Assembly: GCA_017543265.1 (NCBI GenBank)
Contig: JAFYGI010000062.1
Span: 1 to 64,000 of the forward strand
Direction of reading: 5' to 3'
Length of the DNA stretch: 64,000 bases
Source of the DNA: Bacillota bacterium
GTDB lineage: Bacteria > Bacillota > Clostridia > Lachnospirales > CAG-274
Shown: in pieces, positions 484-14,425 of the stretch
Layout of the letters: each line of letters opens with the position of its first letter
Numbering within the stretch: the stretch's first letter is position 1
The notes under the pieces: generated by a model
What the model was told of the DNA's origin: nothing
The model's database searches: none
What the model saw: the letters and a program-made list of their open reading frames with translations, nothing else
Translations under genes and position numbers: made by a program

Positions 484-497
484 TTATTCCCACTCTA
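484..497. repeat. Left attachment core (att) of the guaA element
   Basis: TTATTCCCACTCTA at 484-497 is identical to 14412-14425, where it forms the last codons (Glu-Trp-Glu preceded by Ile) and stop of guaA on the minus strand. A 14-bp direct repeat at the 3' end of guaA, with a tyrosine integrase beside the guaA copy, is the expected signature of site-specific integration. The 3' end of guaA is a known hotspot for genomic islands. Confidence 0.85.
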
Positions 498-595
498 CTT
501 AAGAAATTTAATCACAGGTTGTTTTTAGCTAATTGAGGTTCTTTCTGTCTCATACGTCCCACAATTTTAATTAAATTTCTGTATGTCTCAAAATT

Positions 596-615
596 TTTAG
601 TACGATTTTAGTACG
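596..615. repeat. Paired TTTAGTACG repeats, left candidate integrase arm sites
   Basis: TTTAGTACG occurs at 596-604 and 607-615 (11 bp apart). The same pair with the same spacing and orientation recurs at 14333-14352 near the other end of the element. Tyrosine integrases with an N-terminal arm-binding domain use such terminal repeats, so these are likely Int arm sites about 100 bp inside the left att core. Confidence 0.65.
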
Positions 616-696
616 GTTATAATTTCGCTATACACACTTATATTAAAACAGTTTTTATAATATAAACACATTTTTTACAGTTTTCTATTTTAGTAG

Positions 697-1185
697 CTAT
701 TTGTTGCCATAGTCACCACAGACTTTTTCAAGCAAAGCAAAATCATTTGTTCGTCTTGCCAGAGGTGTTTTCTCTCCGTTTTTAAGTTTATGAGTGTATA
801 CAATTTTTGCGTTTTTCAGAATCAAATCCCGTTTTCGTTTTATTTCACGGTATTCTGCTTGCAACAAAGATTTATAACGCAAATCTTTAACTGCATTGAT
901 GTCAACATACTCATATAAGCCATCGGGAACTGGCAGCATATTATTAATGTTAAGAACAGCATAATCCTTGATCTTGATAAAATCCGTAGTTTCCTGCATC
1001 TTCTTATGCTTCGGTTTAAACGATGACAGCGGAACAAAGTATTTAAAACCATTTACTTCCAGTATTATGCCTATGTATTTTCGGCTGTTTTGCTGCTCTC
1101 TCCTTGCATTCCTGAACAGATGCTCTGCGAATTGGCTTAAGTAATCTATATAAGTGCTGTCAACTTCATAAAATTTCAAATTCAT
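697..1185 (-). CDS. Type III toxin-antitoxin endoribonuclease toxin (ToxN/AbiQ/CptN family)
   Basis: This 162-residue protein has the length and the hallmark N-terminal segments of ToxN/AbiQ-type toxins: a start of the form KFYEVDSTYIDYL, then YIGIILEVNGFKYFVPLSS and FKPKHKKM, then a later NINNMLPVP segment. Members are RNases that cut A-rich RNA and are held inactive by a repeat-containing antitoxin RNA. The start ATG at 1185 follows an AGGAG box 7 nt upstream. Directly upstream are a GC-rich hairpin and two 38-nt tandem repeats with a promoter, the classical type III arrangement in which a leaky terminator sets the antitoxin to toxin ratio. Known roles are phage abortive infection and element maintenance; which applies here is not shown by the sequence. 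Confidence 0.9.
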   Translation of the reverse strand: MNLKFYEVDSTYIDYLSQFAEHLFRNARREQQNSRKYIGIILEVNGFKYFVPLSSFKPKHKKMQETTDFIKIKDYAVLNINNMLPVPDGLYEYVDINAVKDLRYKSLLQAEYREIKRKRDLILKNAKIVYTHKLKNGEKTPLARRTNDFALLEKVCGDYGNK

Positions 1186-1205
1186 TATAATACTCCTATA
1201 TAAAG

Positions 1206-1231
1206 ACGGGGGCAGAACTGACCGCCCCCGT
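1206..1231 (-). terminator. Attenuating hairpin between antitoxin repeats and toxin gene
   Basis: ACGGGGGC at 1206-1213 pairs with GCCCCCGT at 1224-1231, an 8-bp GC-rich stem followed on the minus strand by a short U-rich stretch. In type III systems a hairpin here stops most transcripts after the antitoxin and lets a minority read into the toxin gene. Confidence 0.8.
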
Positions 1232-1360
1232 TAAATTCGCACTTATGAGCAGCGAAACTCTCACTTATAACTTTCTCACATGAGGGTTGAGATACACCCA
1301 CTTAGTAACTCTCTCATTTAAGGGCTGAGATACACCCGCTCCAGACAAACCTCTGTCTGT
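1206..1360 (-). ncRNA. Antitoxin RNA of the type III system (ToxI-like), two 38-nt repeats
   Basis: Two tandem 38-nt units lie at 1300-1337 (first transcribed) and 1262-1299. Each begins GGGTGTATCTCA on the minus strand and continues with a CCCT complement, as expected for the pseudoknotted repeat that binds the toxin. A third, degenerate partial unit may follow (about 1233-1261). The transcript would start near 1360 from the promoter at 1367-1395 and end at the hairpin 1206-1231. By family knowledge the toxin processes the precursor into single repeats that assemble with it; the processing site is not determined here. Confidence 0.85.
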
Positions 1361-1366
1361 ACTCTT

Positions 1367-1395
1367 ATTATATACCAAATTTATAAATATTGCAA
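1367..1395 (-). promoter_or_regulatory. Promoter of the toxin-antitoxin locus
   Basis: On the minus strand TTGCAA (1390-1395) and a perfect TATAAT (1367-1372) are 17 bp apart. It reads through a small CAGAC/GTCTG hairpin (1342-1359) into the two antitoxin repeats and then the toxin gene. Confidence 0.75.
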
Positions 1396-1446
1396 TAGTA
1401 AAATTTTACAGACAACACACTTAAAAATTTTACAGAAACAACACAC

Positions 1447-2148
1447 TTATTGTTGTGTATTACCGATACGATATGTATTATCCGCATTTTGGATTACAAA
1501 AACCATTCCTTCTGACGTAATCTCATATGTATATAATATACCATTTACAGTTTTTTCCGCTTTGTATTTGCCATTTTGTTCCGTTTCAAGAAGCAATTCA
1601 TGTATCATTTTCCAGTCTTCATAATCGGACACAGATAAATTCGCCGCATTTAAAGCAACTAATACCAATTCCTCAAACAACCTGTAATCATATTCATTAA
1701 ATGTTTTTGAAAAAGCACCAATAGTTATTCCGCAAAGTTCATTGGATTCATCAATATTCACTACTCCCAAAAACCCATCCCCACCTACTATGGAGTAATA
1801 TACAGATTCTCCATTTTCTGATCCTGCATATGTCCAAGGCTTGTCATAATTTAGCTCCCTGTCATTTAGCAGTTCATTCAGTATGTTTGTAAAATCTGTT
1901 TTTGATATCCCAATAGGTTTATGCGAAACAACAACTTTTTTCTCTTCGTTATTATCACTCAAATTTTTCTGTTGGTCTGCGGTCGTTGCTTCAATTTTTT
2001 TATCAGTATATGTAGTGCTTGCTGTGTTCTTGTTAGTGCTTGGTGTACTGTTGACAGTATATATAGCATACAGCAAGTAAACCAAGGTTATAATTGAACA
2101 TATAAATTTAAACCAATCTGCAAGATTGGGCTCGTTTTTATCTTTCAT
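1447..2148 (-). CDS. Membrane-anchored hypothetical protein
   Basis: The 233-residue protein starts at an ATG with a good AGGAGG box. It has a short cytoplasmic N-terminus, one membrane segment at about residues 13-30 (WFKFICSIITLVYLLYAIYT) and a threonine/serine/lysine-rich linker to about 75. A folded outer domain of roughly 150 residues follows, with no motif that I recognise. It is the last of five minus-strand genes for exported or membrane proteins in the element. The toxin-antitoxin promoter begins just beyond its stop. Function unknown. Confidence 0.7.
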   Translation of the reverse strand: MKDKNEPNLADWFKFICSIITLVYLLYAIYTVNSTPSTNKNTASTTYTDKKIEATTADQQKNLSDNNEEKKVVVSHKPIGISKTDFTNILNELLNDRELNYDKPWTYAGSENGESVYYSIVGGDGFLGVVNIDESNELCGITIGAFSKTFNEYDYRLFEELVLVALNAANLSVSDYEDWKMIHELLLETEQNGKYKAEKTVNGILYTYEITSEGMVFVIQNADNTYRIGNTQQ

Positions 2149-2324
2149 AAGTCTTTACCTCCTATATAGGGGGGATTATATTATACTATATTATATATTT
2201 TATCATAAATAGACATTGGGGAATATATATTGCAGGCATTTAAGGGTACAATTATATATAATCGTCAGAATCATTTCGATTCTTTTAATTATATTCCAAG
2301 CATCTCTCCTCAATCAAAGATTTG

Positions 2325-3944
2325 CTAATCTGCATATCTGAAATCAACAATCTTAATGCGGTTTCGAGTACTCAACCCCATATCCACTATTTCCTCCGCA
2401 AGATAAACGTGTTCACCAGGATATAACGTTTCTCCTCTAAAATACCAATTTTTGGTGTTAATAATTTCTTTGTTATCATCAAGCAATTCCACAACCGCTT
2501 TAATGTAATTCACCGGACGAGATGAGCGATTTCGTATTGTAGCCCATTCATAAACCGCAATTCCTGATTTAGTACCGCTGAACTCATCTACAACAATAGG
2601 GTTTGCTTCAATTTCTCGTTGTATTCTTTCAGCTTCGTCTTTCGCAGATTTGACATTATTATATAAATCTTGATAGTTTTCTTTAATATATGGCGACGAA
2701 TTGAAGGCCTTAGTCAGTAGGTTCAATGCCGAATCGTAATTCCCGTTGGCATAAGCTTTTTTTGCTTCGTTAACTTTTGGCAGCATATCATTATAAATTG
2801 TTGCCTCATTGATTAATTTAGGTGCCCACTCATTTTTCGGATTTACATCTTTAGCCAGTTGTCCATATTTAATAGCTTGATTAAAATCCTCATTTTTAAG
2901 GCAGGCATTACCTTTTTCAACGTAATACGCTGCTATGCGAGCGTTAAGCTCGGTAGCTTTACTGCTCCCAGGGACGAATCTCAATGCAGCATTTGCTTGT
3001 ACCAAAGCAGCATCCGCATCATCTGCATTAAGTTTTTCGTTGCCTAAATTTATATAATAATCCACTATTTGATTTTTAACAGCCAAGGCTTCACTATTTT
3101 CTGTCAAGGCCTTTTCCGATTTTTCTATTAACATAATTGAATTATCAACATTACCGGATTGAAATTGTTCAAAAGCACTATCGGCAAACGTCTTTGCGAG
3201 CCTTGAATTCAAATTTGTCGGATCTTTCCAATTGGGATTAATATTTACAGCCGCACACAAAGCATTTAATGCCGAGTCATAACTCCCAACATTAAAAAAT
3301 GTGTTGGCATCTTCATATAAAGAATTTATCTTGATATTTATTTTTTTCTCTATATTTTCTATTTCTTCCCATTTATCGTCGTTATCAAGATTGTTTAAAC
3401 TTTCAACAGCTGTTTTGTAATCATCATTTTCAATTAAACCGTCAAGATATTTTACATACTCCGCCTTAATGTCTTTATCGGTCGTTTCTGCCATAGGTAA
3501 ACCAGTTTGTAAGGCAAGCGCTTCCCGGCTTTCGTTTAACGCAAGCATATAGTTTTTTTTGCTTAATTCTTTTTTTGCTTTTTCAATGTGTTTAACAGCA
3601 GAATTAAGTATTTCTATTTTCTGCTGTGCTTGGGAATATCTTTTACTTTTTTCGGGTATTTTCTTATATTCCTCTACCGCAAAATTGGCATTATCCGCCA
3701 ATACTGCTTCCTCTGCCATTGAGATATGTTTCTTCTCGGTATAATTTATATAAATGTTATAAATAAGTGCCAATCCTATTATTACTGCAATAGTAATAGC
3801 TAATCTTATCAACTTTGACTTAAAATTTCTTTCATTATTTAGTGGCTGTATCAATTCAATCTCGTTATCAAACGATTTCCCACATATTACGCACTTTGTG
3901 CTTGTATCGCTATTCGCAGTACCACATTCAGGGCATTTTTTCAC
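2325..3944 (-). CDS. Zinc-ribbon, membrane-anchored TPR-like protein with C-terminal FxLYD-like domain
   Basis: The best start is the GTG at 3944, 8 nt after AGGAGG, giving 539 residues; an upstream GTG at 3953 lies too near the box. Residues 1-22 form a CPxCG...CxxCG zinc ribbon, residues about 46-66 a membrane segment, and 75-440 repeated helical pairs of tetratricopeptide type (for example ALNALCAAVNINPNW and AIKYGQLAKDVNPKN). The last 100 residues look like an FxLYD-type beta domain (WATIRNRSSRPVNYIKAVVELLD, then a GETLYPGEHVYL segment). The layout suggests a cytoplasmic zinc finger with an external scaffold. No enzyme motif is seen. Confidence 0.75.
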   Translation of the reverse strand: MKKCPECGTANSDTSTKCVICGKSFDNEIELIQPLNNERNFKSKLIRLAITIAVIIGLALIYNIYINYTEKKHISMAEEAVLADNANFAVEEYKKIPEKSKRYSQAQQKIEILNSAVKHIEKAKKELSKKNYMLALNESREALALQTGLPMAETTDKDIKAEYVKYLDGLIENDDYKTAVESLNNLDNDDKWEEIENIEKKINIKINSLYEDANTFFNVGSYDSALNALCAAVNINPNWKDPTNLNSRLAKTFADSAFEQFQSGNVDNSIMLIEKSEKALTENSEALAVKNQIVDYYINLGNEKLNADDADAALVQANAALRFVPGSSKATELNARIAAYYVEKGNACLKNEDFNQAIKYGQLAKDVNPKNEWAPKLINEATIYNDMLPKVNEAKKAYANGNYDSALNLLTKAFNSSPYIKENYQDLYNNVKSAKDEAERIQREIEANPIVVDEFSGTKSGIAVYEWATIRNRSSRPVNYIKAVVELLDDNKEIINTKNWYFRGETLYPGEHVYLAEEIVDMGLSTRNRIKIVDFRYAD

Positions 3945-4095
3945 ATTAATCACCTCCTGTATTAAGGAGTAAAAGTATATTATAGTACATATAATATTGT
4001 AAACACCAGTTTTAAACCTTATATTACAAACAAATGTGAGTACAGTCTTATTTTAAAATAATCCAAAACACAAAACATCAACAATCATATTTTTA

Positions 4096-4542
4096 TTATA
4101 TTTTTCCATAATGTTTTCCATTACCATCGCTTAAGTATTTAATTTCAGGCGATATCCCCGAAAAATCCCCCGAATAAACCACCCACCAAGATGATTCTGA
4201 AAATTGACCTGCCGGAATGTTAGCATCAAATCTACAATCTGAAGTTATCGGTTTCCCTGTTTCATCCAGTACGTTAAATCGAATTTCTATTTGGCTAATT
4301 TCAAAATCCAAGGAATTTTTTACTTTATAATCAAATCTTACCCAATCTCCGTCACGTCTTACATTTGTAACTTCTATTTCAATCTTAGAAAGTTCGCTTA
4401 CACTAAATGTATTTTCGCTTGAACTCGTACCCGATGAATTAGCACTATAATCACTGCTACAAGCAGTTGTTAATAACATAATTAAAATCGAGAAAATCAA
4501 AAACATTCTGCATAGGTAACGCTCTCCCATATATTTTCTCAT
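4096..4542 (-). CDS. Lipoprotein with FxLYD-like domain
   Basis: The 148-residue protein has a positively charged N-terminus, a hydrophobic stretch and a lipobox ending LLTTAC near residue 28, so it should be lipidated and kept at the outer face of the membrane. A serine-rich linker follows, then a beta-rich domain (KIEIEVTNVRRDGDWVRFDY...) resembling the C-terminal domain of the zinc-ribbon/TPR protein encoded just downstream on the same strand. The start follows GGAGG at 8 nt. It is probably part of the same cargo set. Confidence 0.75.
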   Translation of the reverse strand: MRKYMGERYLCRMFLIFSILIMLLTTACSSDYSANSSGTSSSENTFSVSELSKIEIEVTNVRRDGDWVRFDYKVKNSLDFEISQIEIRFNVLDETGKPITSDCRFDANIPAGQFSESSWWVVYSGDFSGISPEIKYLSDGNGKHYGKI

Positions 4543-4612
4543 ATTAGTCGCCTCCTCTAGTATATGTAAAGACTGCCCGTAAGAGTATTACGGGCGGTCA
4601 AATATCAAACCA

Positions 4613-5554
4613 TTATTTTCCCGAGCACACATAGCTTAACGCTAATGTTCCATTTCCGCCATTATATTGATATGATACATTTCCATAGTAACCCTCAAAC
4701 ATACCAAGGTATGTACCCATACCCACATCCATATTGCTGCCCGAAAAACCGCTTGCTTGTAAAGCTGATGCATATGAACTAACGTCCTTACTTGTAACAT
4801 TGTAATATGTATATTGTTCAGCAAATCCCTGCATAGAACCTCTCATATTCTTCGTACCGCTTCTGCCCGTTAATGCACCGAAGTCGGGTATCTTTGAGCC
4901 GGAATAGCATGTATATTTTACAGCAGGCTTAGAAGCCGCTGTGTTGCCTCCGCTTGATGTGCTTGCAGATGCCTTCGGAGCATTTTCTGCTGTACATGTT
5001 TGCAGATACCCTTTACCATTTCGCTTAAAATAATAAGTATTTTTTTCACCCCAATAATTAATGTCATAACCATAAAGTGCAGCCATATCATCTTTTGATA
5101 AAAACACCATTGACGCTGGTTCTCCAGCGATAAAATCCCATTCACCCTCCGATACAAAAATCGCGGGGTATTTTAACTGGCAATCGTGTCCATTTACACG
5201 CAGTTTTTTTGAAGCGTTCCAAACAGAAAAATATACATTTTTGTAATTATATCTGTCCTGTTGTTCAACTGTTAAGCTTTCTCTTGAAAGATTCATGTTG
5301 GCATTTGTGTTATAGGGAGCGGTATTTCTTATCATACCATCTAAAGAAATATAACGAATATTGCCATAATCTTTTAAATTAAAATCCACATATACATTTG
5401 GGCTTTCTCCGCCATCACTTTCAAAAACAGTCCTTGAATCTATAACATTTGCTCCTAATACTATATCCTTTGTTAACGCATAGACATTATTGGTTAACAA
5501 AACAAGTACGACAAAGGTACACAAAACTTTACCTATTATATTTTGTATTTTCAT
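4613..5554 (-). CDS. Secreted hypothetical protein with C-terminal module shared with its neighbour
   Basis: This is a 313-residue protein with a clear signal peptide (residues 1-26, cleavage after VYA). The middle (about 27-190) is beta-rich with no motif I know. A serine/alanine linker leads to a C-terminal module (about 215-313) with the pattern SKIPDF..LTG, a YTYYNVTSKDVSSYASAL segment and ASGFS. The same pattern occurs at the C-terminus of the secreted protein encoded at 5714-6574. The start ATG follows AAGGAAG. Function unknown; it may bind a ligand or cell-wall component outside the cell. Confidence 0.75.
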   Translation of the reverse strand: MKIQNIIGKVLCTFVVLVLLTNNVYALTKDIVLGANVIDSRTVFESDGGESPNVYVDFNLKDYGNIRYISLDGMIRNTAPYNTNANMNLSRESLTVEQQDRYNYKNVYFSVWNASKKLRVNGHDCQLKYPAIFVSEGEWDFIAGEPASMVFLSKDDMAALYGYDINYWGEKNTYYFKRNGKGYLQTCTAENAPKASASTSSGGNTAASKPAVKYTCYSGSKIPDFGALTGRSGTKNMRGSMQGFAEQYTYYNVTSKDVSSYASALQASGFSGSNMDVGMGTYLGMFEGYYGNVSYQYNGGNGTLALSYVCSGK

Positions 5555-5713
5555 AAGTTACACTTCCTTTCTTTGCGAATATACAGTATAATTGTTTTTT
5601 TGCAGTAATAAAAGTAACGGTCAAAAAAGCTGCCATAAAATGAACAATATTGTATTGACATTCATAGACAGCTTAAACCAACGAGGTATTACAATTTTAT
5701 GATTTTGATACAA

Positions 5714-6574
5714 TCAATATTTTACAACAACACAAACACTACTGCCGCTAAATCCGTTTAGTTGTTGGATTTCAACCGTTGCTCCGTTTTTGCTGTAAAC
5801 ATTACCATTTACACTAAATCCAAGATTTTTTAGCGTTTGAGTATACTTACTTATATCATCCGAGCCTGCATCATGGTAATTGTATTTCATTCCAACAATA
5901 TTACTATTTTTATCAAAAACCCTTGCATAATTGTTGGAATTTATTGTTGATCCAAGAATATCTCTGTCCGAATCCATATCGGCAAATTTACAGCCTGTCA
6001 CCGATGCGAAATCCGGTATTGATGTGTTTGGATAGTTCTTGTAGCTGCCACTTTGTGAATTAGAATTACTGGACTTATTTCCGGAGTTTGACGAACTTGC
6101 CGTAGGCTTAGCTACAGGTGCCTGTCCGACGGTAGAGGTTATCCTTCCCTCGCCTGTATTGTCGATATAAATGGTATTCTTTGATGAATCATATTTTACG
6201 GAAACACCAAGCTGTTCTTCTATAAGCCCCGCCGTAACATAAATAACCTCATTTTCCTTAAAAGGTGTTTTGGCAAGGCCGATATCCATTCCGTTCATCC
6301 TGCCCTTTGACTTACCGAGGAAAACCGAGAAATAGCCCGGTTTTGTTTTCACCTCCGCTGTAACACTATTGTTGCTTTCTTTTTCGATAACCTTGTAGTC
6401 TAATGCCCTACAAACCTGTGCCACAGGCAGATAGACGATACCATCTTTAAAAATCGCCTCCGCCTTGATGTCTGCCTCATCATTGTTGCAGACATACCTC
6501 ATTTCATTTTCGGCAAACGCCGTTACACTAAAAAGTGTAGTACTTGCCAAAAATACCGCCAAAAATCTCTTCAT
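5714..6574 (-). CDS. Secreted stalk-domain protein (copper amine oxidase N-terminal-like)
   Basis: The 286-residue protein begins with a signal peptide (about 1-21, ending VTAFA). Residues about 30-145 match the stalk fold known as the copper amine oxidase N-terminal-like domain (GIVYLPVAQVCRALDYKV, then KNTIYIDN). A serine/asparagine linker and a C-terminal module of about 100 residues follow (TSIPDFASVTGCKF, DDISKYTQTLKNLGFS), shared with the protein encoded at 4613-5554. The strong AAGGAGG box supports the ATG at 6574. It is divergent from an XRE regulator gene, with two inverted repeats between them. Confidence 0.8.
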   Translation of the reverse strand: MKRFLAVFLASTTLFSVTAFAENEMRYVCNNDEADIKAEAIFKDGIVYLPVAQVCRALDYKVIEKESNNSVTAEVKTKPGYFSVFLGKSKGRMNGMDIGLAKTPFKENEVIYVTAGLIEEQLGVSVKYDSSKNTIYIDNTGEGRITSTVGQAPVAKPTASSSNSGNKSSNSNSQSGSYKNYPNTSIPDFASVTGCKFADMDSDRDILGSTINSNNYARVFDKNSNIVGMKYNYHDAGSDDISKYTQTLKNLGFSVNGNVYSKNGATVEIQQLNGFSGSSVCVVVKY

Positions 6575-6635
6575 ATGAAAACCTCCTTTTTATCCGCATT
6601 TTCTGCGGTGAATAACTAAAAAATCCGAGCATTTT

Positions 6636-6715
6636 TAATTCCTGTTAGGAATTATTTTATATAAGTAATATACCATATTAAATCTTTTTTGTCAATAATT
6701 CTCCACAAGAATTAT
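6636..6715. promoter_or_regulatory. Two related dyads between divergent genes, candidate XRE operators
   Basis: TAATTCC-TGTTA-GGAATTA (6636-6654) and ATAATTC-TCCACAA-GAATTAT (6695-6715) are inverted repeats with the same AATTC/GAATT core. They lie between the stalk-protein gene (minus) and the XRE regulator (plus). I infer operator sites for the regulator, likely controlling both genes. Confidence 0.55.
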
Positions 6716-6771
6716 ATTTTTTGTTAAAAATAATATAATAATATAGTATTTATTAACAAAGGATGATGCTT

Positions 6772-7014
6772 ATGAAACCTCGCAAACAGCAATTAGGCAC
6801 AAAAAATATCATAGGCCGCAAAATCACAGAATTACGAAACAAGCACGCCATGAAGCAAAAGGAACTTCTTGCCAAAATGCAAACGTTAGGTGCAGATATA
6901 AACCCCTCAAGCCTATCAAAATTAGAGGGTCAAACTCGCCCCGTAAGCGACATAGAAGTTAAAATACTTGCCGAAATTTTTTCTGTTTCGGCAGATGAAT
7001 TACTTGGTATTTGA
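6772..7014 (+). CDS. XRE-family helix-turn-helix regulator
   Basis: An 80-residue protein made almost entirely of an XRE/Cro helix-turn-helix domain (IGRKITELRNKHAMKQKELLAKM, then SSLSKLEGQTRPVSDIEVKILAEIF). Of three nearby ATGs I prefer 6772, 9 nt after AAAGG; 6763 and 6766 are too close. It is divergent from the secreted stalk protein and probably represses from the dyads at 6636-6715. The gene ends in a shared terminator with the convergent kinase gene. Confidence 0.85.
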   Translation: MKPRKQQLGTKNIIGRKITELRNKHAMKQKELLAKMQTLGADINPSSLSKLEGQTRPVSDIEVKILAEIFSVSADELLGI

Positions 7015-7029
7015 TTTATTGTAACAAAA

Positions 7030-7060
7030 AATGCCCTCGGTTTCATTAGCTGAGAGCATT
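7030..7060. terminator. Bidirectional terminator between convergent genes
   Basis: An imperfect hairpin (AATGCcCTCgG at 7030-7040 with CtGAGaGCATT at 7050-7060) has A-rich DNA on the left and T-rich DNA on the right. It serves the XRE gene and the convergent kinase gene. Confidence 0.65.
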
Positions 7061-7071
7061 ATTTTGTGTAT

Positions 7072-8772
7072 TTAATATAATAAATTTGGTGTCTGTGCCA
7101 TATCGGGCATTTGTATAACTTTGCCATCCTCCACAACAAAGGTATGGTATTCTATTATTGCAGTGTCGTCTTCTGTTCTGTAATTATATGTTATTATCCT
7201 GTTTGCAAGCACTTCTGCGCTTTGTTCGGTATCATATAAAGCTATTTTGTCCCCTTTGCACAAGGTCATTTGTACATCCTCATTTACCTTTATTGGGTGT
7301 ATGACCGCATAAAGCGGCTTTGCATCGAGAATATCATAAACCCCCATTTCCACCGCAAGCATATCAAATATACCGTCATAATCCAAATCACAATACATTA
7401 TTTCATAAAAAGTGCTTTCTGGTACATATTGGGTCTTTATATATTCCGCATTTTCGGTTTTAGGTATAAATATATCTTCGCCGCATAAGGATAAGTTTAT
7501 TCCGTTTTCGGCTGTATCAACAACAAGCGTTTCTATTCTGCTATTGTCCTTGTATACATAAAAATCAGCCTTTTGCTTGCTTACATTTTCATCCCTGCAC
7601 TCTAAAATATAGGTTCCATATCCCTCGTCCATTCTGGTAAATAGTGTACCAAATCTTGTGGATGTACCAAAGTAGCCATAATTATGGGCATAGCCTTCAT
7701 TATCCTTGCCGACAGGCTTTTGACCCCCATCATTTGCTGCCGTCGCAGCAGTTGTCACCTCGGATATACTCTCTTGTTTTTTTATCAATGGCGGCGGTGC
7801 TTGTGTAGTTTGTTCGGCAGGCTTCGTTTGCAATTCAACGGTCGTTGTTGATATTGTAGTCTCGGTTACTTGTTGGATCGGCATTTCTGTCGTTATTTCA
7901 ACACTTTCTTCCATTAGTATAGACTGCGTTTCTTCAACAGCTGTTGTGCTTTCGGTGGGCAAATTTATAATATTTTCTTTTGGAAAATCATTTTTATCGG
8001 CACAAATATGATTTATTGTCAATACCGCTGCCATTACAGCTGTAATAGCCATAATTGCAACAACCAAATATATTTTATTAAAAGCGTTTTTTAATGCAAC
8101 CGCATTTTTATAGCGGTCATCAGCATCAACCTTTATGCATTTCTTTATTATATTGCTGTATGGCAGTTTCTTTACTTTATCAAGACTTTCCCTGCCGCTT
8201 AAAAGCACGACCATCAATTTGCCGACAGAATATATATCGCTCCTTATATCCGTTTGTTTAAAGCCATATTGTTCGGGTGAAGCATAAAACTCCGTCCCCA
8301 GTCTTTTGGTATCTGCATTATTGCTGTTATTAAAACTTCGTGCAATGCCGAAGTCTATAATAAAAATGTCATTTGTCGGTGTCAAAATGATGTTTGACGG
8401 CTTTATATCTCTGTGTATGATGTTTGCCTTATGGAGCGGAATAAGTATGTTGCAAATTTGAATAACAATATGCTTTACCTGCTTGGCACTTAACCTGCCC
8501 TGTGATTTTAATATATCCGCAAGGGTATCACCACCGATATATTCCTCTATAATAAAGTCGCGGCTATCTTGCTTAAATATGCTTAATATTTTTGGAACAC
8601 CGGTTATACCCAATTCTTTTATCTTATTATATACCTTGGCATTCTCAACCTGCTTTAAGACCGCCATCTTATTGTATGTACTTAAATTTATAAGCCAAAC
8701 ATTTTTGCCCAACGAATTTAAAATCTCATACCTGTCGGAACAATTATTGAATTCATCCGCAAGCTTACTCAT
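7072..8772 (-). CDS. Transmembrane eukaryotic-like Ser/Thr protein kinase
   Basis: The 566-residue protein has an N-terminal kinase domain (about 14-225) with Lys40 (AVLK), the catalytic HRDIKPSN at 120-127 (Asp122, Asn127), DFG at 140-142 and an ASPE segment near 165. The glycine-rich loop is degenerate. One membrane segment lies at about 233-254. The outer part has a Thr/Glu/Pro-rich linker (about 265-350) and a C-terminal domain with a DLDYDGIFDML stretch that looks like a calcium-binding repeat. There are no PASTA domains, so the sensor differs from PknB/PrkC. It is divergent from an HTH gene that probably belongs to the same circuit. It is likely active, but the substrate is unknown. Confidence 0.9.
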   Translation of the reverse strand: MSKLADEFNNCSDRYEILNSLGKNVWLINLSTYNKMAVLKQVENAKVYNKIKELGITGVPKILSIFKQDSRDFIIEEYIGGDTLADILKSQGRLSAKQVKHIVIQICNILIPLHKANIIHRDIKPSNIILTPTNDIFIIDFGIARSFNNSNNADTKRLGTEFYASPEQYGFKQTDIRSDIYSVGKLMVVLLSGRESLDKVKKLPYSNIIKKCIKVDADDRYKNAVALKNAFNKIYLVVAIMAITAVMAAVLTINHICADKNDFPKENIINLPTESTTAVEETQSILMEESVEITTEMPIQQVTETTISTTTVELQTKPAEQTTQAPPPLIKKQESISEVTTAATAANDGGQKPVGKDNEGYAHNYGYFGTSTRFGTLFTRMDEGYGTYILECRDENVSKQKADFYVYKDNSRIETLVVDTAENGINLSLCGEDIFIPKTENAEYIKTQYVPESTFYEIMYCDLDYDGIFDMLAVEMGVYDILDAKPLYAVIHPIKVNEDVQMTLCKGDKIALYDTEQSAEVLANRIITYNYRTEDDTAIIEYHTFVVEDGKVIQMPDMAQTPNLLY

Positions 8773-8801
8773 AAAGACACCCCCTTTTATAAAATTTTTT
8801 G

Positions 8802-8830
8802 TTGAAATCTTGTTTTTCTTGTGTTACTAT
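8802..8830 (+). promoter_or_regulatory. Promoter of the HTH/small-protein pair
   Basis: TTGAAA (8802-8807) and TACTAT (8825-8830) are separated by 17 bp and lie 18 bp before the HTH start codon. The kinase gene starts 30 bp away in the other direction. Confidence 0.6.
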
Positions 8831-8848
8831 ATTCCGGAGGTGATCATC

Positions 8849-9271
8849 ATGAAAAACACAGAGGAATTAATGGCTGAAATTCTCCGGTCAACCGAATTAA
8901 CAGACTTTTTTAGCAAAAACGAACAGGACATTCCAAATCTTTCTCTTACAGATTATCTTAATACTTTATTGGCAGAAAAGCAAGTATCAAGAAAGGAAGT
9001 TATAAAAAAATCCGAGCTTAATTACACCTATGGGTACCAGATCCTTAACGGCACAAGAAAGCCCACCAAAGACAAGCTTATACAAATCTGCTTTGGGCTC
9101 AATGCCTCTGTACAGGAAACAAACCGTATACTTACCATTGCAAATGCAGGTGGTTTGTACAGCAAAAACAGGCGTGACTGCATTATAATATTTGCACTTA
9201 ATAAAGGACTTTCTCTCCAACAGCTTAACGATTTACTTTTTGAACTTAACGAAATAATCATAGGAGACTAA
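8849..9271 (+). CDS. Helix-turn-helix protein paired with the kinase
   Basis: The true start is the ATG at 8849, 7 nt after a near-perfect GGAGGTGA box, giving 140 residues; the longer open frame upstream is antisense to the kinase. Residues about 35-75 form an XRE-like helix-turn-helix (LLAEKQVSRKEVIKKSELNYTYGYQILNGTRKP split over two helices). The C-terminal half is helical (NRRDCIIIFALNKGLSLQQLNDLL). It sits 76 bp from the divergent Ser/Thr kinase. By context it could be the kinase substrate or a regulator of it; I know of similar kinase-HTH pairs in Clostridia but no assigned function. Confidence 0.8.
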   Translation: MKNTEELMAEILRSTELTDFFSKNEQDIPNLSLTDYLNTLLAEKQVSRKEVIKKSELNYTYGYQILNGTRKPTKDKLIQICFGLNASVQETNRILTIANAGGLYSKNRRDCIIIFALNKGLSLQQLNDLLFELNEIIIGD

Positions 9272-9312
9272 TTTTTCATTTTAGTTTTATTTTATTAATA
9301 AAAAGGTGATAT

Positions 9313-9570
9313 ATGATGAAGCGTTTAAATGCCCCAAAAAATACTGCCGATAACAAAATCAAAAGGAAAGCCTCCTTTGACGAAGACACAATGTGCGTCC
9401 ATTACTCCTATGATGATAAAGTATATTACGACATAACGTATATTGATGGCGTTCCCCGTTTCTCCGGCATATCGTGGGAATGTGGATACTGCTGTGAAAC
9501 CGAAGATACAATAAAATTTATCAACACAATGGCACAGGCATTGGATGATGTAAATTTTTACCTCTTATAA
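9313..9570 (+). CDS. Small hypothetical protein downstream of the HTH gene
   Basis: An 85-residue protein with a GGTGATAT box in front of two adjacent ATGs (9313 or 9316). It is soluble, with a basic N-terminus (residues 1-22), then a beta-rich body containing CGYCCE and a helical end (TIKFINTMAQALDDVNFYL). It lies 41 bp after the HTH gene, so the two are probably co-transcribed. No family recognised. Confidence 0.65.
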   Translation: MMKRLNAPKNTADNKIKRKASFDEDTMCVHYSYDDKVYYDITYIDGVPRFSGISWECGYCCETEDTIKFINTMAQALDDVNFYLL

Positions 9571-9605
9571 AACTTTTTTTAGATGCTATTTTTTTCATTA
9601 ATTTC

Positions 9606-9641
9606 AAAGGTCCCCTAACCCAATCGAATCAGGGGACCTTT
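9606..9641. terminator. Bidirectional terminator between cargo and replication gene
   Basis: AAAGGTCCCCT (9606-9616) pairs perfectly with AGGGGACCTTT (9631-9641) around a 14-nt loop, with T-rich DNA on both sides. It separates the kinase-linked genes from the convergent rep gene. Confidence 0.85.
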
Positions 9642-9644
9642 ATT

Positions 9645-11045
9645 TTAGAATAAGGTATTTTCAATTTTGGGCTTGTCCACCGCTTTGGATAGGTCCTTTT
9701 TGTTTTTTTCTTTTTTGACGGATGGATTTTGGAAAGATTTCTCCTGCTTTATATTTTGTTCTGCGATATCACTACAATCATCTTCTATAATCTCTCCATA
9801 GTGGGATATATCTAAATCGTTATTTTTCATAAACAGCACGCTATCTTCGGTCTTATTTATTATATCAACAATTGGACGGCATAACTTTTGCAATGCTTCT
9901 TCCTTAAAAACATCATAGGTTTTCTTTGCTATTTCCGCAAAGCTCCCTCTCATTTTTATTACATCATAATCCTTGTATTTGTTAATATCACCGGTTGCAT
10001 ACCCCCTATTTACATACAATATAAGATAATCTTCCAACAAATGTATTATATAAGGAAACCTTCTATACGCTTGATTGCTGTCCTCTCCCTTTTTTGTGAG
10101 GCCATTTAAGAAATCCACATAATCTTCTTGCCCATTTACAAAATTCACTTTATTAAGCAGCTTAACAGTTCCAAATTTAACATTTACCCTTTGGTCAGAT
10201 GGTTCGGGATTAAAAACAATATATACATTTCCAATTCCCCCCAATACTTTTATTATGTCTTGAGACCGAAAATCACTCCAGCATAATACTTCTTCTCCTT
10301 TGTATCCGTTAAAGCCTGCCTTATCTTGAGCCACCGCAAAAACCGAGTCCTTACCAATCAAACTTTTCGATAACGCATGACAACAACAATCCTTACCAAC
10401 CGAAGCTTTTCCAAAAACATAAATAGATATTCTTTTGAACGGCAATTTCTTATTATTTAAATAAGCTTCTTCCGCTTGTTTGAGTTTTTTTAAATTTTTA
10501 ACGTATAATTTTGCATTTTCTTTATAACACTCATCAAGCGTTTTACCATTTTGTGCTACATCTTCAATCCATTGGTCAAGCTGGCTTTTTTTTACTAATT
10601 TTTTGCCCGCTGAAATAACTTGATCGTAATTAAAATTGCATATTACCTCATCAGGAGAATACTGAAATTGGGTTTTATCATCTATATGTATCAAATATCT
10701 TGCAACCGATATAAATCCACCATGACCTGTAACTTTATCTACAAAGTTATCTTCGACACAAAACCATTTAGCAATACGACTTAAGGAATAAGCTTCTTTT
10801 AGCTGCAACAATATGTGGTAATGAGGTCTTTTGGGTTTCTCTATTAAATTCCCTTTAGCATCATTTTCAAATTCAGTATCCTTATCATGCAAAATATAAG
10901 CATAGCCTATTACAATTTTATGCTTTAAAGCTTTTGCAATAATATTTTTTTCATACTCTCTTGCTTCTTCAACTGTGTCAAAATGCTGTACAATGTGATA
11001 CAGTCTGCTTTTTAATGTTTTTTTGATTATTACGTTTCTTTTCAT
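9645..11045 (-). CDS. Rolling-circle replication initiator with HUH endonuclease and SF3-type helicase domains
   Basis: The preferred ATG at 11045 gives 466 residues; a TTG at 11093 would add 16 but neither has a clear ribosome binding site. The N-terminal domain carries rolling-circle motifs in order: YAYILHDKD, the metal-binding HYHILLQL (HxH) and a catalytic-type tyrosine in ARYLIHIDD. The C-terminal domain has a Walker A-like GKASVGKD, NGYKGEEVLCWSDFR as Walker B and YIVFNPEPS as motif C. This order matches CRESS-DNA virus Reps and the related plasmid Reps of Bacillota. The tail is lysine/glutamate-rich and probably disordered. It should nick the element origin and unwind DNA. Walker A ends in Asp rather than Ser/Thr, which is unusual. 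Confidence 0.8.
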   Translation of the reverse strand: MKRNVIIKKTLKSRLYHIVQHFDTVEEAREYEKNIIAKALKHKIVIGYAYILHDKDTEFENDAKGNLIEKPKRPHYHILLQLKEAYSLSRIAKWFCVEDNFVDKVTGHGGFISVARYLIHIDDKTQFQYSPDEVICNFNYDQVISAGKKLVKKSQLDQWIEDVAQNGKTLDECYKENAKLYVKNLKKLKQAEEAYLNNKKLPFKRISIYVFGKASVGKDCCCHALSKSLIGKDSVFAVAQDKAGFNGYKGEEVLCWSDFRSQDIIKVLGGIGNVYIVFNPEPSDQRVNVKFGTVKLLNKVNFVNGQEDYVDFLNGLTKKGEDSNQAYRRFPYIIHLLEDYLILYVNRGYATGDINKYKDYDVIKMRGSFAEIAKKTYDVFKEEALQKLCRPIVDIINKTEDSVLFMKNNDLDISHYGEIIEDDCSDIAEQNIKQEKSFQNPSVKKEKNKKDLSKAVDKPKIENTLF

Positions 11046-11121
11046 AATATAATCATCTACTTTTAAATTTTCAACTGTGAAGCATATATCCAAATTTTTG
11101 TTTCAAATAACAACCCTAACA

Positions 11122-11212
11122 ATATACAGTATACAGTTGCATATAACACAAGCCCTTTTTATTCTAATAACATTATTTATCAGTAATTGGACAAAAAAAT
11201 ATACAGTATACA
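11122..11212. repeat. Two 14-bp repeats with an internal dyad between rep and the HTH genes
   Basis: ATATACAGTATACA is present at 11122-11135 and 11199-11212, 77 bp apart. Each contains TATAC-A-GTATA, an inverted repeat with a one-base centre. The divergent intergenic position (rep on minus, HTH on plus) suggests operators for one of the small HTH proteins or Rep-binding origin repeats. Confidence 0.55.
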
Positions 11213-11379
11213 CTTCAAAGTCATATTTTAAATAGATAAACTTTAAAAAAAATTCAGTAATTTTATTTTGGTGTAGCCACAATAATAAAATTTTTATTTG
11301 TTTCCATATAAATTGAATAAATTTAATATGTTATTCTATTTTTTATAAAAAACTTTTATAAAAAAGGAGTGCGAAAATT

Positions 11380-11568
11380 ATGATCGACGAAAAAAGTGTA
11401 TACACTGATAAGGACATACAAAAAATATTGGGCATCAGTAAATCAAAAATGCAGACAATACGTTCAAATAATACTATTCCGTTCACAAAGATAGGAAGAC
11501 ATTTCTACATATTGAAAAGAGATTTTGAAGCTTGGCTTTCATCAAATGCCGGTAAAATTGTGTCCTGA
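11380..11568 (+). CDS. Small excisionase-like DNA-binding protein
   Basis: A 62-residue protein preceded by AAGGAG at 9 nt. It is a MerR/excisionase-type winged helix (YTDKDIQKILGISKSKM, then TIPFTKIGRHFYILKRDFEAWL), the common Xis architecture of integrative elements. It is the first of three consecutive tiny HTH genes. By family it could direct excision with the integrase or regulate rep; excisionase is the simplest reading. Confidence 0.75.
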   Translation: MIDEKSVYTDKDIQKILGISKSKMQTIRSNNTIPFTKIGRHFYILKRDFEAWLSSNAGKIVS

Positions 11569-11717
11569 CAAATAGTTAAAGACATAATTTTGCCTTTGAT
11601 GTTATTTTTTCTCATTTTTATCCATTTTTAAATACAAATCTTTTATAAAAAATAAAAGCCATTTAATATCCTACACTGAGTAAATAAGGGATTAAAAAAA
11701 AGGAGGCAAACAAAAAA

Positions 11718-11891
11718 ATGACAATCTGTAATTATTATGACTCAAAAGACATTGGACGTATTCTCTCTGTTTCAAGAGCCACTGCATACCGTATTATAAA
11801 AAAATTAAACAGCGAACTGAATAAACAAGGATATATAACCATTAGTGGCAAAATTCCTAAAGAATACTTTAATGCAAGGTTTTATTGTTAA
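11718..11891 (+). CDS. Tiny HTH protein, copy 1 of a duplicated pair
   Basis: A 57-residue protein starting at the ATG 11718 after AGGAGG (12 nt). The N-terminal half holds a helix-turn-helix (SKDIGRILSVSRATAYRIIKK) and the C-terminal half a small basic beta-hairpin (YITISGKIPKEYF). It aligns without gaps to the product of 12275-12448, at about 25 identical residues of 57 counted by eye. The two genes also share upstream leader sequence. Likely a small DNA-binding regulator or excision factor of the element. Confidence 0.7.
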   Translation: MTICNYYDSKDIGRILSVSRATAYRIIKKLNSELNKQGYITISGKIPKEYFNARFYC

Positions 11892-11908
11892 ATCGTTGTA
11901 TTCCACAC

Positions 11909-11955
11909 AAAAAAAGAAGAGCACATCTTGACAATGCAGGTGTTCTTCTTTTTTT
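11909..11955. terminator. Terminator after the first tiny HTH genes
   Basis: A 16-bp stem (11909-11924 with 11940-11955, one G-T wobble) ends in a run of seven T on the plus strand. It closes the 11380-11891 transcription unit. Confidence 0.85.
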
Positions 11956-12274
11956 GATCAAAAAGCTCATAATTCGTCAATTTTCATTAAACTTGCACAA
12001 CTTAACACTACCTTTCCCCTACCCGCACGTCATTGTATAAATATAATTCACATTAAATTGGATATTTTAAACACCAAACCTGTGCATTATGCTCACAAAA
12101 AAATCCTCTATTTTGACACACAAAAAAAACAAAATCATATTATCTTATCATTTTCTCATCCATTTTCTATTAAAAATCTTTATAAAAAATAAAAGCTGCT
12201 CTGTGCAGAAATGGGGACGTGCATATTACCACAGAATAGCTAAATAGAAAAAGAAAGGAGGTCAAATATCAAAC
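11956..12274. other. AT-rich intergenic leader of the second tiny HTH gene
   Basis: About 320 bp without a convincing gene. Its right part repeats the leader of the 11718 gene: a TTTTCTCAT...CCATTTT segment followed by a CTTTATAAAAAATAAAAG stem-loop (12177-12194; compare 11640-11658). The left part shows no structure that I can name. Confidence 0.5.
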
Positions 12275-12448
12275 ATGGATAATCAAGAGTTTTATACTGC
12301 ACCTGATATTTTGAAAATTTTTCCTATTTCAAGAACACATGCATATAAAATTATACGTCAGTTGAATGCCGAGCTTGAAAAGAAAGGATACATAACTGTT
12401 CGTGGAAGAATTTCAAAAAAATACATTGAAGAAAGAATGTTTCTTTAA
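12275..12448 (+). CDS. Tiny HTH protein, copy 2 of a duplicated pair
   Basis: A 57-residue protein starting at the ATG 12275, 12 nt after AAAGGAGG. It is the paralogue of the 11718 product: same length and same HTH (PDILKIFPISRTHAYKIIRQL), with a KKGYITVRGRISKKYI hairpin at the end. The recognition-helix region differs (SRTHAYK against SRATAYR), so the two may bind related but distinct sites. Gene and leader appear to come from a tandem duplication. Confidence 0.7.
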   Translation: MDNQEFYTAPDILKIFPISRTHAYKIIRQLNAELEKKGYITVRGRISKKYIEERMFL

Positions 12449-12544
12449 GCCACACACTGTTTATTAATGTATACCTTTTAAAACTGTATGTATCAGTATT
12501 TATTTTTATATATTTAGCGTTTATCAAAGTCCATTTCAAATTTC

Positions 12545-12556
12545 ATAAACGTTTAT
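12545..12556. promoter_or_regulatory. Perfect palindrome upstream of the resolvase promoter
   Basis: ATAAACGTTTAT at 12545-12556 is a perfect 12-bp palindrome ending 8 bp before the -35 box. A half-site GTTTAT recurs near 12520. It is a candidate operator for one of the element's HTH proteins. Confidence 0.45.
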
Positions 12557-12564
12557 TAAATACA

Positions 12565-12593
12565 TTGACATTTACAAACTTTTATGTTATAAT
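12565..12593 (+). promoter_or_regulatory. Consensus promoter of the resolvase-integrase operon
   Basis: TTGACA (12565-12570) and TATAAT (12588-12593) with a 17-bp spacer match the housekeeping consensus exactly. It reads into the serine resolvase and then the integrase. Confidence 0.85.
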
Positions 12594-12625
12594 ATATACA
12601 TACAAAACGAAAGGGGTTTAGCAAT

Positions 12626-13267
12626 ATGGCAGAATATTATTATGCTCGGGTATCAAGCAAAGAACAGAATATGGACAGGCAAATCGAAGCCTTTAAAGCA
12701 ATCGGAGCAAATGACCGATATATCTACTGTGACAAACAAAGTGGCAAAGATTTTGACAGACTAAATTATAATCTGCTTGTTGGTACACCCGAAACAGCAC
12801 CTTTACTTCGTGAAGGCGACTTGCTCACAATATACAGCATAGACCGTTTAGGCAGGAACTATACCCAAATACAAGAGCAGTGGCAATATATCACAAATGT
12901 AATAGGTGCCGATATAAGGGTCATTGACATGCCTTTACTTGATACCTCTACGGATAACAGCAGTATAGACGGACGATTTATTGCAGATTTAACTCTGCAA
13001 ATCCTCGCTTACGTCGCCGAAAAAGAGCGTATTAACATCAAAGAAAGGCAAAAGCAAGGCATAGAAGCCGCTAAGAAAAATGGCAAGAAACTTGGTCGTC
13101 CCGAAGTCCAGTTTCCCGATAATTGGAACGATATATACGACCAATGGAAGGCAAAGAAATTTACAGCGGTAAAAGCTATGACTATATTAGGATTAAAGAA
13201 AAATTCTTTTTACAATTTAGTTAAAAGATATGAAACAGAAAAAAATATTAAACAGAAAGATGGCTAA
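12626..13267 (+). CDS. Serine recombinase of the resolvase/invertase family
   Basis: A 213-residue protein starting at the ATG after AAAGGGG. The N-terminal catalytic domain has the nucleophile segment ARVSSKEQN (Ser10), DRLGRNY with the arginine motif near residue 73, and a helix with KERINIKERQKQGIEAAKKNG. A C-terminal HTH (about 175-205) binds DNA. Its size fits small resolvases rather than large serine integrases. It is translated just before the tyrosine integrase, whose start overlaps its stop. In a rolling-circle element it could resolve multimers; it is not needed for the guaA integration, which is typical of tyrosine recombinases. Confidence 0.9.
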   Translation: MAEYYYARVSSKEQNMDRQIEAFKAIGANDRYIYCDKQSGKDFDRLNYNLLVGTPETAPLLREGDLLTIYSIDRLGRNYTQIQEQWQYITNVIGADIRVIDMPLLDTSTDNSSIDGRFIADLTLQILAYVAEKERINIKERQKQGIEAAKKNGKKLGRPEVQFPDNWNDIYDQWKAKKFTAVKAMTILGLKKNSFYNLVKRYETEKNIKQKDG

Positions 13268-14324
13268 TTTTATGGCAGCAAATAAATGCAAAAACGGCAA
13301 ATGGTATGCCAAATTTTATTATACGGACTGGACGGGAAAACGCAAGCAGAAGAAAAAAGAAGGCTTCTCGACAAAAAAAGAAGCCCTTGCATTCGAAGCA
13401 GATTTTTTAAACAGGTGCGAAACATCACCTAAAATCATTTTTAAAAATCTCGTTACTGAATATATTGCAGATTGCAAAATACATCTCAGAGAAACCACAG
13501 TAGCCAACAAGACACACATTATTCGTACGAAAATACTGCCTTATTTTGGCGATATGAATATCAGCGATGTTACTATAAATACTGTAAAAACTTGGCAAAA
13601 CAAGCTAATTTCAAGCGAAAATGGCTATTCTGAGACCTACCTTAGAACTGTACACAATCAGCTTTCTGCTATATTCAATTATGCGATAAAGTTTTATAAG
13701 CTTCCGCAGAATCCCGCCGCACTCTGTGGTTCAATGGGTAAGAAGAAAGCCAACAGTATAAACTTTTGGACGAAGTCGGAATTTGATACATTTATAGCGC
13801 AAGAAAACAACCCTATGTTCGAAGTAATATTTAAACTTTTATTTTTCTCGGGTATGCGTGAGGGCGAGTTATTGGCACTTACATTGAATGACTTTGATTT
13901 CATTGAAAATACAGTTAGCATAACCAAAAGCTACGCAAGACAAGGCTGTAAAGATATTATAAACCCGCCAAAAACCCCAAAGAGCAAAAGAATAATAACT
14001 TTGCCGCCCAAAATTATGGATATGGTAAAGGAATACAGCACTATGATATATAATTATAAGCCTTACGAAAGACTGTTCACGATGCACAAATCAACTTTAT
14101 CAAATGAAATGCAAAGAGGCTGTAAACGTTCGGGAGTAAAAAAAATCAGAATTCACGATTTGAGACACTCTCACGCTTCGTTACTGATTGAAATGAATGT
14201 ATTACCCTTACTCATATCAGAAAGGCTTGGTCACGAAAATATTGAAACCACTTTGAATACATATTCTCACCTGTATCCAAACAAGCATAAACAGGTAGCT
14301 GATATGTTATCGGCAATCGTATAA
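13260..14324 (+). CDS. int: Tyrosine integrase of the guaA element
   Basis: With the ATG at 13260 (8-bp overlap with the resolvase) the protein has 354 residues; starts at 13230 and 13272 are possible. It has an N-terminal arm-binding domain (GKWYAKFYYTDWTGKRKQK), a core-binding SAM-like domain (about 60-155) and the catalytic domain with Arg200 (GMREGELLAL), His299 and Arg302 (HDLRHSH), His325 (GHENIE) and the nucleophile Tyr335 (NTYSHLYP). The gene ends 88 bp from the guaA stop codon. It should catalyse integration at and excision from the 14-bp guaA core, using the TTTAGTACG repeats as arm sites. Confidence 0.95.
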   Translation: MANFMAANKCKNGKWYAKFYYTDWTGKRKQKKKEGFSTKKEALAFEADFLNRCETSPKIIFKNLVTEYIADCKIHLRETTVANKTHIIRTKILPYFGDMNISDVTINTVKTWQNKLISSENGYSETYLRTVHNQLSAIFNYAIKFYKLPQNPAALCGSMGKKKANSINFWTKSEFDTFIAQENNPMFEVIFKLLFFSGMREGELLALTLNDFDFIENTVSITKSYARQGCKDIINPPKTPKSKRIITLPPKIMDMVKEYSTMIYNYKPYERLFTMHKSTLSNEMQRGCKRSGVKKIRIHDLRHSHASLLIEMNVLPLLISERLGHENIETTLNTYSHLYPNKHKQVADMLSAIV

Positions 14325-14332
14325 ATATTTCA

Positions 14333-14352
14333 TTTAGTACGTTTTTAGTACG
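14333..14352. repeat. Paired TTTAGTACG repeats, right candidate integrase arm sites
   Basis: TTTAGTACG at 14333-14341 and 14344-14352, in the same orientation and with the same 11-bp spacing as at 596-615. They lie immediately after the integrase stop codon and about 60 bp inside the right att core. Confidence 0.65.
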
Positions 14353-14363
14353 CTTTTAAAATA

Positions 14364-14406
14364 AAAGAGCTTGAAACCAGCTATTTTACAGCATTTCAAG
14401 CTCTTT
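14364..14406. terminator. Bidirectional terminator shared by integrase and guaA
   Basis: A perfect 13-bp stem (AAAGAGCTTGAAA at 14364-14376 with its complement at 14394-14406) around a 17-nt loop, flanked by A- and T-rich DNA. It lies inside the element, so guaA transcription now ends in element DNA. Confidence 0.85.
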
Positions 14407-14411
14407 CTCGT

Positions 14412-14425
14412 TTATTCCCACTCTA
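14412..14425. repeat. Right attachment core within the guaA stop region
   Basis: TTATTCCCACTCTA is identical to 484-497. On the minus strand it encodes the end of guaA (ATA GAG TGG GAA TAA), so integration keeps the guaA coding sequence intact. Confidence 0.85.

Follow-up and report, generated by a model that had tools for sequence, protein, structure and literature searches.

The window, by which we mean the whole 64,000-nt stretch of DNA analysed, carries a rep gene within a 13,928-bp element (484–14411) located at the 3' end of guaA (Table 1). Read from the guaA side, the element encodes a tyrosine integrase followed by a serine recombinase, a pair of small HTH proteins, an excisionase-like protein and Rep. 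Further HTH proteins come next, with a Ser/Thr kinase and then secreted and TPR proteins after them, and a ToxN/AbiQ toxin closes the far end. The serine recombinase gene overlaps the start of the tyrosine integrase gene, such that two site-specific recombinases adjoin. The two HTH proteins between xis and the resolvase gene (11718–11891 and 12275–12448) are similar to one another, at 57 aa each, and are akin to small proteins that precede the integrases in guaA elements of relatives. Additionally, the kinase adjoins secreted proteins and the zinc-ribbon TPR protein, and is possible signalling or defence cargo. The ToxN-family toxin is preceded by tandem repeats that are a candidate antitoxin, as fits a type III ToxIN/AbiQ system; the repeats had no match in Rfam, and judging by sequence the toxin and repeats likely form an addiction or phage-defence module.

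Table 1. Features of the guaA-site element and its borders
Feature	Position	Strand	Evidence or remark
Left att core TTATTCCCACTCTA, direct repeat of the guaA 3' end	484–497		Exact 14-bp repeat
Tandem TTTAGTACG pair, left end; possible integrase arm sites	596–615	+	Just inside core
ToxN/AbiQ-family type III toxin	697–1185	-	PF13958, E 2.9e-49; PADLOC AbiQ, E 7.2e-37
Two 38-bp tandem repeats, candidate ToxI antitoxin RNA	1262–1337	-	TRF; upstream of toxN
Zinc-ribbon and TPR protein, cargo	2325–3953	-	Pfam
Ser/Thr protein kinase, probably membrane-anchored, cargo	7072–8772	-	PF00069, E 1.3e-31; PD-T4-6-like kinase domain match
Terminator-like inverted repeat AAAGGTCCCCTAACCC..CAGGGGACCTTT, just past the rep stop	9606–9642		Read directly
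Rep, HUH endonuclease and SF3 helicase, YLxH/pCRESS type, Walker A GKD, Walker B WSDFR	9645–11045	-	Domain, homology and alignment evidence
ATATACAGTATACA repeated upstream of rep with a 77-bp separation; candidate operator or origin-binding sites	11118–11215		Repeat search
Excisionase-like HTH_17 protein	11380–11568	+	PF12728, E 4.6e-12; TIGR01764 excise
Serine recombinase, resolvase/invertase type	12626–13267	+	PF00239, E 2.7e-23
Tyrosine integrase with arm-binding domain	13230–14324	+	PF00589, PF14659, PF14657
Tandem TTTAGTACG pair, right end; possible integrase arm sites	14333–14352	+	Pair starts 14333/14344, just inside core
Right att core, formed by the final guaA codons and stop	14412–14425		Exact repeat; homology to four congeners begins exactly at 14412

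The initial annotation had placed Rep on an integrated element, and this was borne out by the att cores and by natural empty sites. The 14-bp core was found 0 times in 300 simulated 14-kb sequences, and the two tandem TTTAGTACG pairs are the only such pairs in the whole window. In three relatives guaA runs straight into the sequence that lies left of 484 in the window (identity of the best pieces 98 % in G004, 91 % in G005 and 79 % in G003), and it is from these empty sites that the span of the element was set. G+C content is 34 % inside the element vs 46 % in the rest of the window, with the AT-rich stretch running from position 1 to about 14,400. A tyrosine integrase placed the element at the guaA 3' end. 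Positions 1–483, which encode an HTH protein, are the end of a second guaA-site integrative element, inside which the contig begins. In relatives, the sequence left of 484 is part of a different guaA-site element, which encodes an integrase of its own and is found after guaA in G004 and G003, and we therefore conclude that the window holds two such elements in tandem. The single copy of such an element or gene in 48 family genomes, along with a broken related gene (G357, described below), might point to a decaying relic whose rep no longer functions; nevertheless, open reading frames are retained for rep, int, xis, the resolvase gene and toxN, the att cores are exact at both ends, and we consider this reading very unlikely.

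The rep gene lies on the minus strand and extends from an ATG at 11045 (coding 9648–11045, with the stop ending at 9645), specifying 466 aa without an internal stop. All of the motifs on which the HUH and SF3-type reading had originally been built (YAYILHDKD, PHYHILLQL, ARYLIHIDD, GKASVGKD, NGYKGEEVLCWSDFR and YIVFNPEPS) are present in the translation, and Pfam, tblastn and profile comparisons agree with that reading. In the Pfam search, Rep_OBD (PF01719) matched residues 38–141 (E 9.9e-11; 42.3 bits vs a cut-off of 24.6) and PF00910, the helicase model used for CRESS Reps, matched residues 208–261 (E 2.7e-4; 21.8 bits vs a cut-off of 21.5). As PF00910 also finds matches in seven of 14 control genomes and is weak as sole evidence, the helicase call was tested by homology. 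Alignment revealed that HUH motifs I–III are intact (HxH, Tyr and YLIH at residues 117–120), and that an SF3 region of ∼141 aa is followed by a long tail. Motif C of this region is KVNFVNG (about residues 299–305), with the arginine finger QAYRRF after it; YIVFNPEPS, the last motif listed in the initial annotation, is not motif C. An AlphaFold2 model built from few relatives had a mean pLDDT of 47 and left the SF3 part unmodelled; Foldseek searches with this low-confidence model returned only ferredoxin-like proteins, all at E > 0.005. SF3 homology to CRESS Reps was found instead by sequence profile: an 11-sequence profile that includes the window Rep matched solved CRESS Rep helicases (9pqq, E 7.5e-18; PCV2 7lar, E 3.5e-9).

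Using tblastn against plasmids, we identified the Rep of Leptotrichia wadei plasmid pJMUB3934p4 (WP_146965079.1), which matches residues 12–374 across both domains (E 2e-46; 31 % identity). Phytoplasma Reps (E 1e-15) and an uncultured-bacterium plasmid were also found, with many phytoplasma plasmids among the matches and several of these aligned across both domains. Furthermore, a profile of the window and Leptotrichia Reps matched the phytoplasma pCPa-type Reps over 313 columns and both domains (prob 99.6, E 1.4e-23). As tblastn and the profile–profile alignment each span both domains, we regard the homology of Rep as a two-domain one. A further profile–profile comparison (A1 vs A3) was discarded as circular, since A3 includes the window protein. 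The same two-Rep profile matched the structure of the origin-binding nuclease of pMV158 RepB (E 9.2e-6); this likeness is confined to the HUH domain, however, as RepB has no SF3 helicase, and the window Rep differs in the same way from the pE194/pMV158 Rep_2 proteins. The initial annotation had named clustering with helicase-less Rep_2 proteins as an outcome that would speak against it; no such clustering was seen, and the closest kin possess the helicase. In wider searches, peptide-pattern scans of genome and viral contigs recovered almost no close kin, a DNA pattern for GYxGxxVxWxDxR had no match in viral contigs, and most weak matches in genomes were unrelated P-loop ATPases. Two inovirus-like IMG/VR contigs (L075 and L076) encode an HUH-only Rep with motif III YFIH or YLIH that resembles the window nuclease domain.

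Phylogenetic analysis placed the window Rep with the Leptotrichia p4 and G912 Reps (support 99/94), a clade within which the order of branching is not resolved (AU p 0.19 and 0.38). The Reps of pRGI00490 and Leptotrichia p3 are less close, and the pCPa type forms a separate clade. The nearest kin found here are Reps of bacterial plasmids (Leptotrichia, uncultured-bacterium and phytoplasma), the relatives being carried by small plasmids, and together with the window Rep they range from 466 to 681 aa. Bacterial Reps of this architecture have been sorted into nine groups, for the most part on site-specifically integrated plasmids, and among these pCRESS groups 4–8 form the YLxH supergroup, named for a sequence common in motif III (Kazlauskas 2019, PMC6668415). 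On the strength of its motif III, YLIH, the window protein is classed here as a bacterial pCRESS Rep of this supergroup. In a 2021 survey, pCRESS4 is reported as the longest group (mean 584 aa), with a long ATPase domain, variable termini and Asp, Gly or Asn where Walker A otherwise has Ser/Thr (Tarasova & Khayat 2021, PMC8780604). The GKD motif, the ∼141-aa SF3 region and the long tail all fit this description, the nearest kin fit the group too, and pCRESS4 is the most likely assignment, as judged from published traits and a single anchor (pCPa) that itself lies in a different clade.

The kinship to CRESS-virus Reps and their plasmid relatives that had been put forward from the motifs is upheld by profile and tblastn matches. 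The suggestion of a branch not yet described, close to the transition from plasmid to virus, is not supported: descriptions of integrated pCRESS plasmids and of the YLxH supergroup date from 2019, the Walker A Asp was noted in pCRESS4 in 2021, and the nearest kin found here are bacterial plasmid Reps. Rep is a further member of a published bacterial family with kinship to Reps from small single-stranded DNA viruses. Unlike a CRESS-DNA virus (Cressdnaviricota), the site-specifically integrated element that encodes it has no capsid-like ORF or other viral structural gene, as assessed by ORFs and Pfam. With the YLxH and pCRESS4 Reps the window Rep shares the HUH and SF3 domains, motif III, residence on an integrated element, a long protein with an extended tail and the Walker A Asp, but differs in having Ser for the Walker B Asp in the same protein. 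The phytoplasma pCPa-type Reps, although alignable in both domains and with YLxH or YMxH in motif III, retain the canonical GK[ST] and DD. The Leptotrichia p4 Rep has the same GKD and WSDFR pair as the window Rep, but is encoded by an autonomous 4.5-kb plasmid with a plasmid recombination/mobilization gene and no integrase.

This pairing was explored by alignment, which confirmed the earlier observation that Walker A ends in Asp. Among 27 aligned Reps and fragments, GKD occurs only in the window and Leptotrichia p4 Reps. Walker B in these two reads WSDFR, so that its first position is Ser, as opposed to Asp or Glu in intact relatives. G912, the closest relative that is both intact and canonical, carries GKS and WDDMR, and the broken pCRESS-type Rep G357 (L034, 1200–2640) has GKT and WNDFR. 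In the main text of Tarasova & Khayat (2021; PMC8780604), Walker A is discussed for pCRESS4 and Walker B, separately, for CRESSV4, and there is no mention of an Asp/Ser pairing within one protein; new here is that each of the two Asp-bearing Reps found combines the Walker A Asp with a change of the Walker B Asp to Ser.

Loss of both canonical Mg2+ ligands could signify a dead ATPase. The SF3 domain would then only oligomerize or bind DNA, with a host helicase unwinding the template as in pMV158-type plasmids, and the 2021 survey indeed asks if a Walker A Asp still permits ATP hydrolysis, given that comparable changes lowered activity in other ATPases (PMC8780604). We view this as possible but less likely than not, as there is no change in the Walker Lys, the second Walker B Asp, the B' Lys, the motif C Asn or either arginine, and as the Leptotrichia plasmid bearing the same GKD and WSDFR pair exists as a free replicon. 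Moreover, the SF3 region is the best-conserved part between these proteins from two phyla (38 % identity, vs 29 % for HUH and 22 % for the linker and tail), which together with the retained motifs argues against decay of the domain. We think, from sequence comparison, that the Walker A Asp is a feature of the branch, paired with the Walker B Ser, and that the domain, being conserved, probably still binds nucleotide, whether or not hydrolysis is reduced. A reciprocal swap of Mg2+ ligands is a possible explanation that fits the data, these being two Reps that perhaps reflect one event and so cannot prove coupling. That the two ligands exchanged places in one pCRESS branch, Asp now closing Walker A and a hydroxyl residue taking the first Walker B position, and that the motor stayed active with a swapped metal site, seems to us unlikely.

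In order to locate an origin, we searched around rep. No copy of the CRESS nonanucleotide NANTATTAC was found in the intergenic stretch that lies upstream of rep; matches are scattered elsewhere, with one inside the start of rep itself. The pMV158-type nick motif was not found in the element, and the region upstream of rep displayed no unusual fold (z -0.92). With no nick motif at a plausible site and no such fold, the origin was not located. Nevertheless, we consider it probable that the protein is a pCRESS-type Rep of the YLxH supergroup, most likely pCRESS4, encoded by this 13.9-kb tyrosine-integrase guaA element, which it may serve in rolling-circle copying and/or mobilization after excision. 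The rep gene, its domains and homologs, the exact element ends and the empty sites in three relatives are observed, and from these we infer a sequence of events that goes beyond them: excision by Int and Xis would restore the circle, the HUH domain would bind and nick the origin of the element, Tyr117 would remain on the 5' end after the nick, and a hexamer of the SF3 domain may help unwinding. Rolling-circle copying would then maintain the circle and/or yield a single strand for mobilization.

An alternative is that Rep serves chiefly as a relaxase, the element being an integrative and mobilizable element (IME). Rep would then nick an oriT and travel with the strand via the conjugation machine of another element, and replication would be secondary. 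In streptococcal IMEs, proteins with PF01719 and PF00910 have been given the role of relaxase, and the guaA 3' end is the target of some of these IMEs (Coluzzi 2017, PMC5357655). The likeness extends to the nearby tyrosine integrase and excisionase, both domains, Int and Xis all being present here, and more distant relatives of Rep in G003 and G979 lie beside a PF01580 ATPase of FtsK type, in the position that TcpA coupling proteins occupy. The streptococcal elements mostly carry TcpA, however, whereas no FtsK/TcpA, other coupling or conjugation gene was seen on the window element by ORFs and Pfam. In addition, the closest kin reside on small plasmids, among which Leptotrichia p4, p3 and pRGI00490 have a separate mobilization-type protein or MOBV typing, and this argues that the Reps of these plasmids serve replication. 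The IME study itself notes that the distinction between replication protein and relaxase may not hold (PMC5357655). A chiefly relaxase role thus appears somewhat unlikely, and we favour replication first, since the element lacks an FtsK-type ATPase and a mobilization-type protein is encoded separately from Rep on the related plasmids.

These findings contribute an integrated element with sharply defined ends and natural empty sites to a little-sampled branch of the bacterial Reps that bear on the origin of CRESS-DNA virus Reps. Furthermore, the paired Walker A and Walker B change provides a concrete biochemical handle on the published question of whether Asp-bearing Reps hydrolyse ATP.
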